A DNA stretch of 34,295 nt from a virus. Location of the stretch: positions 1-34,295 of IMG/VR virus record IMGVR_UViG_3300006339_000152. One strand, written 5' to 3'. Each line of letters starts with the position of its first letter. Positions within the stretch are counted from its first letter, which is position 1. A program made the translations under genes and the position numbers. Below, piece after piece: positions 174 to 1,802 of this stretch. The notes beneath the pieces are model-generated. The model was not told the DNA's origin. It made no database searches and saw nothing but the letters and a program-made list of their open reading frames with translations.

Positions 174-181
174 TATAAATA
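174..181 (+). promoter_or_regulatory. T4-type late promoter box TATAAATA
   Basis: Exact match to the T4 late -10 consensus, directly after the lipoprotein stop. With the usual T4 spacing transcription would start about 187, only a couple of bases before the ATG at 189, so the first mRNA would be nearly leaderless. It would drive the small-gene run into L7/L12. Confidence 0.6.
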
Positions 182-999: not shown

Positions 1000-1299
1000 A
1001 TGCCAGGTATCAGTAGAAAAGGCGACCAATTAACAACAGGACACACTTGTGCTGGAGTAACTACGTTAGATACTCCAACACAATCTACTGTAAGAGCAAA
1101 TAATATTGTTATAGCAAGAAAAACAGATAAAACTGTAGTACACCCAGCACCACCACCACCTTTTTGTCCAGCACACGTGATGATGGTTAATGTAGGAAGT
1201 TCTACAGTTAGAGTTGTAGGATTACCTGTATCACGAATTGGTGATAGCGCAGACGCAGGACAATTAATTAAAGGTTCTACTACTGTAAGAGCGGGTTAA
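1000..1299 (+). CDS. PAAR-motif baseplate spike-tip protein
   Basis: The 99-residue protein has the PAAR-family layout: N-terminal MPGISRKGD followed by TTGHTC, then repeated short beta hairpins and GLPVSRIGDSAD, with a C-terminal GSTTVRAG. H15, C17, H48, C56 and H59 (in PPPPFCPAH) are candidate ligands for the metal that stabilises the tip. PAAR proteins cap the gp5-type spike and sharpen it for membrane piercing (T4 gp5.4 is the counterpart). The location immediately before gp25 and other wedge genes supports a baseplate role. Length is normal for a single-domain PAAR. Confidence 0.88.
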   Translation: MPGISRKGDQLTTGHTCAGVTTLDTPTQSTVRANNIVIARKTDKTVVHPAPPPPFCPAHVMMVNVGSSTVRVVGLPVSRIGDSADAGQLIKGSTTVRAG

Positions 1300-1319
1300 A
1301 CTGTATAAATATTACAGTT
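1286..1319 (+). promoter_or_regulatory. Putative hairpin-assisted initiation region of gp25
   Basis: TAAGAG (1286-1291) lies 28 nt before the gp25 ATG, too far to act directly. Between them is a perfect 7-bp inverted repeat, AACTGTA (1299-1305) and TACAGTT (1313-1319), with a 7-nt loop, ending exactly at the ATG. Folding would leave a 7-nt spacing from TAAGAG to the ATG. T4 gene 25 is known to use an intercistronic hairpin of this kind. The TATAAATA box lies partly in the stem and loop. Confidence 0.5.
1304..1311 (+). promoter_or_regulatory. T4-type late promoter box TATAAATA (gp25)
   Basis: Exact late-promoter consensus in the 20-nt gap between PAAR and gp25. The expected start near 1317 would give an almost leaderless gp25 mRNA (ATG at 1320). 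It overlaps the inverted repeat described for 1286-1319, so the same bases may act as DNA promoter and as RNA hairpin in read-through transcripts. Confidence 0.6.
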
Positions 1320-1802
1320 ATGGCACAAAGCAATTCAGCATTTTTAGATGATTATACAAAACACGTTAAAAGTACTAGTACTAGAACATCTAGGAAATTT
1401 AAAGATATAGATTTAGACTTCGGTAGAAATCCAATTACTAATGACGTTAATGTGGTTGAAGACGCAATAGCAATAAAGAGGTCTGTTAAAAATTTAATAC
1501 AAACAAATTTCTATGAAAGACCTTTCCATCCAGAATTAGGTTGTGGTGTAAGGGGATTGCTTTTTGAAAATTATTCTCCAGTATTGAATGTCTATTTAAA
1601 AAGAAAAATAGAAGAGTGTTTAATTAATAATGAACCTAGAATTGAGTTAACTGGTATTATGATAAATGGAGATGATTTTGAAAAAGGTGCAAGAGTTAGT
1701 GGTAATGCTGATGAGAATAGATTAGATGTAACCATATATTTTAATATTATAGGTGTACCAGAACCACAAGAAACAGCAATAAGTTTACAAAGGTTAAGAT
1801 AA
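1320..1802 (+). CDS. 25: Baseplate wedge subunit gp25
   Basis: The 160-residue protein carries the gp25/lysozyme-like wedge signature: DIDLDFGRNPITNDV (about residues 29-43), a helix IAIKRSVKNLIQTNFYERPFHPELG, and the diagnostic EPR triad at 105-107 in NNEPRIEL. In contractile tails gp25 sits in the wedge core with gp6 and gp7 and initiates sheath polymerisation. Length is close to T4 gp25 (132 aa) with about 25 extra N-terminal residues rich in Ser/Thr. No Shine-Dalgarno lies at normal distance; see the hairpin at 1286-1319. The next gene follows after 7 nt. Confidence 0.92.
   Translation: MAQSNSAFLDDYTKHVKSTSTRTSRKFKDIDLDFGRNPITNDVNVVEDAIAIKRSVKNLIQTNFYERPFHPELGCGVRGLLFENYSPVLNVYLKRKIEECLINNEPRIELTGIMINGDDFEKGARVSGNADENRLDVTIYFNIIGVPEPQETAISLQRLR

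Follow-up and report, generated by a model that had tools for sequence, protein, structure and literature searches.

A T4-type late promoter box close to the gp25 start codon in marine T4-like phages, and a clade-local hairpin that overlaps it

Gene 25 in a marine T4-like phage starts directly behind an inverted repeat that overlaps a late promoter box, raising the question of whether its translation depends on a hairpin that delivers a distant Shine-Dalgarno (SD) sequence, as the initial annotation proposed, or on where the late transcript begins. The window, which is the whole stretch of DNA that was analysed, has 34,295 bases and 31% GC, and is organized with a PAAR gene followed by gp25, a nitroreductase-like gene and gp6; the nitroreductase-family match between gp25 and gp6 (1810-2451) is weak (1e-4) and barely under the Pfam cut-off. 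The PAAR stop codon and the gp25 ATG are 20 nt apart (ACTGTATAAATATTACAGTT), and the features of this region are as follows.

174..181, + strand: second late box TATAAATA, ending 7 nt before ATG 189 of a 53-aa ORF
1000..1299, + strand: PAAR-motif (gp5.4-like) gene (PHROG 281, 1.3e-12; Pfam PAAR, 8e-5, under the curated cut-off)
1286..1291, + strand: TAAGAG, the proposed distant SD, which belongs to Val-Arg codons toward the 3' end of the PAAR gene, pairs weakly with the anti-SD and is not co-conserved with the hairpin
1297-1299, + strand: TAA stop codon of the PAAR gene
1299..1305, + strand: hairpin 5' arm AACTGTA, whose first A is the final base of the PAAR stop and whose 3'-terminal TA also opens the late box
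1304..1311, + strand: late promoter box TATAAATA, T4-type, exact sequence
1313..1319, + strand: hairpin 3' arm TACAGTT, abutting ATG 1320
1317..1319, + strand: predicted late transcript start (~1317) and 3-nt leader GTT, placed from T4 spacing (+1 being the 6th nt past the box)
1320..1802, + strand: gp25 baseplate wedge protein gene (Pfam GPW_gp25, 9.6e-12; PHROG 261, 6.3e-40)

The best explanation of the locus as a whole, a fairly confident one, is a near-leaderless late gp25 mRNA; the hairpin, confined to read-through RNA, would be either neutral or, at most, a lid over the AUG. The first part is the firmer, and by analogy with T4 spacing the late mRNA is quite probably leaderless or near-leaderless and free of an SD. 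The box at 1304 has the exact TATAAATA sequence and no -35 element, as in a T4-type late promoter; late sigma factor, late co-activator and clamp proteins (gp55-like, gp33-like and gp45 type) are encoded by the isolates Mosig and HTVC008M, where they are annotated, and not by the 34-kb window fragment. The T4 late box spans -13 to -6 (PMC1524935), and with this geometry the gaps of 5 to 9 nt seen in this group predict that gp25 RNA starts between -4 and +1 relative to the AUG. Late RNA polymerase of the gp55/gp33/gp45 type would thus begin 0 to 4 nt before the AUG or right at it, and the late message from which gp25 is made would have little or no leader and no SD. The predicted start at 1317 lies 3' of the hairpin 5' arm, so that, from position alone, the late RNA would not contain the stem. 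The proposal that transcripts of the local promoter lose the hairpin and are practically leaderless is supported as a prediction from the box position, and concerns a widely conserved feature.

Relatives were compared at 214 gp25 loci with 75 distinct start contexts, to which a DNA pattern search was added. All 39 distinct upstream cores, from marine Pelagibacter-type phages, have NATAAATA located 5 to 9 nt 5' of the gp25 ATG, with gaps of 5, 6, 8 or 9 nt (39/39), the start codons of contigs being picked by frame and nearness to the box, and the annotations of the isolates concurring. The gap is 8 in Mosig and 5 in HTVC008M, and it is conserved in lineages both with and without the hairpin; in the gap-5 cases the 5' end would fall inside the gene if transcription started a few nucleotides downstream of the T4 distance. 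Across the window, Mosig and HTVC008M, TATAAATA occurs 10 times at a gap of 5 or 8 from ORF starts; 55 other 8-mers of equal composition do so 0.6 times on average and 5 times at most. Distances from late boxes to starts are two-peaked, being either 5 to 8 nt without an SD or mostly at least 16 nt and usually with one. The near class comprises eight genes in HTVC008M (including gp25, gp2, a neck protein and a CsgF-like gene) and four in Mosig, all at annotated starts. Gene 2, the DNA end protector, provides an independent test, and the box ends 5 to 8 nt before its ATG in 53/53 distinct contexts. Most of 55 contexts contain no SD within 20 nt of the AUG, and the few matches are weak (best, -3.7 kcal/mol) and none is strong. 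At the level of sequence, the promoter-AUG spacing, its conservation and the absence of a strong nearby SD are thus established, and the best reading is that SD-free, near-leaderless late mRNAs would serve a small set of genes.

Several other starts have features of note. In the window, the 53-aa ORF (MTYCNNCG...; 174-350 with its box) is a second near-leaderless start, and its arrangement recurs in relatives' records with a gap of 6 to 7. In L250, an unrelated 286-aa ORF (MAKVSFSQYSMWSSCQHQYKL...) begins 8 nt past a TATAAATA box. Gene 2 contexts L303-L307 often have a terminator-like hairpin and a T-run directly 5' of the late box, and gene 2 may be insulated from read-through by this arrangement.

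The near-ATG box is not general to T4-like phages, as is evident from four cyanophage genomes, in which ATAAATA-N5-8-ATGGC was not found, and from the positions of the T4 boxes, which, where followed by an ATG, are mostly far upstream and usually have an SD between. No near-ATG late box was seen at T4 gene 25, and in Methylophage Melnitz gp25 is preceded by an ordinary, SD-containing leader. The marine promoters share with those of T4 the box TATAAATA and, in relatives of the window phage, the gp55-like and gp33-like proteins and a clamp, but T4 boxes are mostly well upstream with an SD, whereas the marine class ends 5 to 9 nt before the ATG. The predicted transcripts resemble leaderless mRNAs of bacteria and phages in that the AUG is at or within a few nucleotides of the predicted 5' end and there is no SD; they differ in that a large group of phages conserves a fixed promoter-AUG distance at particular late genes, 25 and 2 among them, the 5' ends being predicted ones. 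A literature search of incomplete coverage found nothing direct on leaderless T4-type late mRNAs or on transcription starts of pelagiphages. If 5' ends confirm the prediction, leaderless late transcripts are the source of some structural proteins in a large group of marine phages that is also abundant. The promoter and the start codon would in that case form one unit, inseparable in evolution, and the timing of translation would be unlike that imposed by T4 leader hairpins and SD sequences. It would also bear on the handling of leaderless mRNA by streamlined marine bacteria and by phage-coded ribosomal proteins. Attention also moves off the hairpin, for whose proposed role there is little support.

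The hairpin itself was described correctly in every coordinate: it is a perfect 7-bp inverted repeat with a 7-nt loop and fully (100%) complementary arms, ending at the gp25 ATG, and the late box (1304-1311) does overlap it, covering part of the 5' arm and the loop. RNAfold of 1270-1340 includes the stem (-14.9 kcal/mol, z -1.87), with 11 of 200 shuffles folding equally well. Perfect 7-bp hairpins with loops of 3 to 10 nt end at 0.12% of window positions; ATG 1320 is the sole ATG among 684 with one ending just 5' of it (∼0.8 expected), and the sole gene start among 32 (∼0.2 expected). When the free bases are randomised and the box, stop and ATG are kept fixed, 0.2% of trials give a fold that is as good or better; four of the seven stem pairs use bases that are fixed otherwise, namely the TA of the box and the AA in or beside the TAA stop. 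From the window alone, it is suggestive that the hairpin is beyond chance.

Hairpins in the relatives are of several types. Type A has the arms AACTGTA/TACAGTT, A2 extends this stem to the AU of AUG (9 bp), B has AACTGTATA/TATACAGTT (9 bp), C has a shifted box, D has AACAGTA/TACTGTT with both sides changed in a double compensatory change, and E and F are weaker with one bulge; the stems of A2 and B' are lengthened to 9 to 10 bp, into the AUG. Null fractions are at most 0.2% for types A to D, although the relatives share ancestry and the fractions are hence not independent. In the gp25 protein tree the hairpin forms fall in one supported clade (99/97), with D nested among A and B; types G and H, in which the hairpin is weak or lost, also lie inside this clade. 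All more distant gp25 lineages are devoid of the hairpin, the exception being a weak E form in L226, L231 and L232. The annotation had named covariation of the arms as its check and uncompensated variation as its refutation, and both were found: L011 is compensated, and L012, L016, L028 and L242 vary without compensation. A pattern search with the 3' arm alone recovered many unrelated ATGs besides gp25, and the uncompensated L242. Once the relatives' sequences are included the hairpin is beyond chance, but within one clade only; as read from these comparisons it is real and partly maintained, but clade-local and, because several sister lineages lack it, dispensable. Late promoters are not generally accompanied by hairpins, as other late boxes in the window, Mosig and HTVC008M have none, with the exception of a short TAGTA-TAAA-TACTA at box 174 that is mostly a consequence of the promoter sequence.

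That the hairpin is neutral has close to an even chance, though somewhat short of it. It would then be a chance inverted repeat around the promoter, perfected through template-switch (quasi-palindrome) mutation and retained under the separate constraints on promoter, stop and start, with only the promoter position under selection. The four of seven pairs on bases fixed by box and stop codon are consistent with this, as is the loss of the hairpin in types G and H within the clade, and relatives without the hairpin still keep a TTAC-N-GTT-ATG like that of the 3' arm. Hairpin-templated mutation could also have produced both the 9-bp type B and the compensatory type D. Against neutrality, the free bases of both arms do not vary among 14 sequences with the hairpin, compared with invariance at just 4 of 13 four-fold gp25 sites; type D differs from L006 at both paired bases despite a four-fold divergence of just 3/50; and the A2 and B' stems reach into the AUG. 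Conservation of the arms could, however, also stem from promoter constraint or from hairpin-templated mutation.

A function as a lid on read-through RNA, the second part of the preferred explanation, is possible but doubtful, and would operate as follows. The hairpin would form only in RNA reading through from upstream, for example from box 174, the nearest upstream late box able to yield RNA over gp25. Its stem, which abuts and often enters the AUG, would close the start codon on such RNA, and gp25 would then be made from the short late transcript only, in the manner of T4 gene e. In the predicted read-through fold of the window, the U and G of the AUG are 85-90% paired, and two of the three AUG bases are paired in several relatives, although not in L005; in most hairpin types at least part of the AUG is predicted to be paired. 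Some relatives lacking the hairpin are likewise predicted to pair their AUG in read-through RNA, and the predicted leaderless RNAs are not uniformly open. By analogy, T4 gene e is the closest known analogue for this part of the explanation, as its late promoter lies inside an inhibitory stem and frees translation late (PMC3014915). The T4 gene e, soc and I-TevI leaders likewise have a late box in the 5' side of a hairpin, such that late RNA is without the inhibitory arm and read-through RNA contains it, but late RNA of T4 keeps a normal SD, whereas that of the window is predicted to be almost without a leader, and inhibition here is putative.

Delivery of a distant SD, the role first proposed for the hairpin, is highly improbable. 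As in the split ribosome-binding site of T4 gene 25, the hairpin would loop out 21 nt of read-through RNA so that TAAGAG (or GAGCGGGU) nears the AUG and ribosomes initiate. The geometry is plausible on paper, since TAAGAG is followed by 7 nt (CGGGTTA) before the stem and would be 7 nt from the AUG after folding, and T4 genes 25 and 38 are precedents (PMC3014915). Pairing of GAGCGGGU with the anti-SD (-5.1 kcal/mol) is near that of ordinary SDs of the window phage, and GCGGG is kept in several hairpin-bearing relatives though GCG is a rare Ala codon (6%). However, the SD and the hairpin are not conserved together: L005 and L261 have 9-bp stems without an upstream SD, and L012 and L016 have a true GGAGG SD where the hairpin is weak or absent. 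Anti-SD pairing upstream of the hairpin is -5.1 kcal/mol in the window, -3.1 in L005 and -5.8 in T4, and L261 (UUUCCGCUGGCUAA) has no purine-rich match; the rank correlation of SD strength with the hairpin across the 55 contexts is weakly positive (0.29) and clade-driven, and was left unused. The helix leaves no single-stranded nucleotides before the AUG (8 nt in T4), the folded stem would lie 2 nt from the end of the best SD match, TAAGAG itself is mostly paired upstream in the predicted fold, and the SD-like bases are C-terminal PAAR codons. The distant SD-like bases are weak, and the hairpin probably does not deliver an SD. In the window, the rare GCG codon (6% of Ala codons) lies in GTAAGAGCGGG (1285-1295), and many close relatives keep this codon.

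The related suggestion that gp25 uses the same device as T4 gene 25 fails on direct comparison, which also rules out homology between the two hairpins. The gene is the same, and in both a short hairpin lies between a weak purine-rich stretch and the AUG, but the T4 hairpin differs in sequence, leaves 8 nt free before the AUG and has gene 26 upstream and no late box, whereas that of the window leaves 0 nt, has the PAAR gene upstream and a late box inside, and is not co-conserved with an SD. According to a review of the T4 work (PMC3014915), only close T-even phages have the gene 25 split site, and non-coliform T4-like phages are without it.

Least probable, by a small step, is that the inverted repeat works as DNA, as a promoter-opening aid or a protein-binding operator: the late box and the first transcribed bases lie at its centre, the compensatory change keeps DNA as well as RNA symmetry and no G-U pairs point to RNA, but other late promoters in the same phages and most gp25 promoters of relatives have no such repeat, and T4 late promoters require only the box (PMC2988020).

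A broader and speculative extension, unlikely as a whole, is that marine T4-like phages of SAR11-type hosts would set apart a class of late genes on strictly leaderless mRNAs by means of the fixed box-AUG distance, perhaps with ribosomes biased late in infection by phage ribosomal proteins (bS21 in Mosig and HTVC008M, bL12 in the window), and with a hairpin that silences read-through gp25 in the window's clade. Mosig (L215) and HTVC008M (L219) both encode bS21, which is linked to SD-dependent initiation, alongside late genes of the leaderless type. In the window, the ribosomal protein bL12 is encoded at 538-900 with both domains (Pfam, 6e-22 and 2e-9), between late box 174 and the PAAR and gp25 genes. 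A published survey (PMC6375957) lists bL12 only for smaller cultivated phages, whereas here it is found in a T4-like phage.
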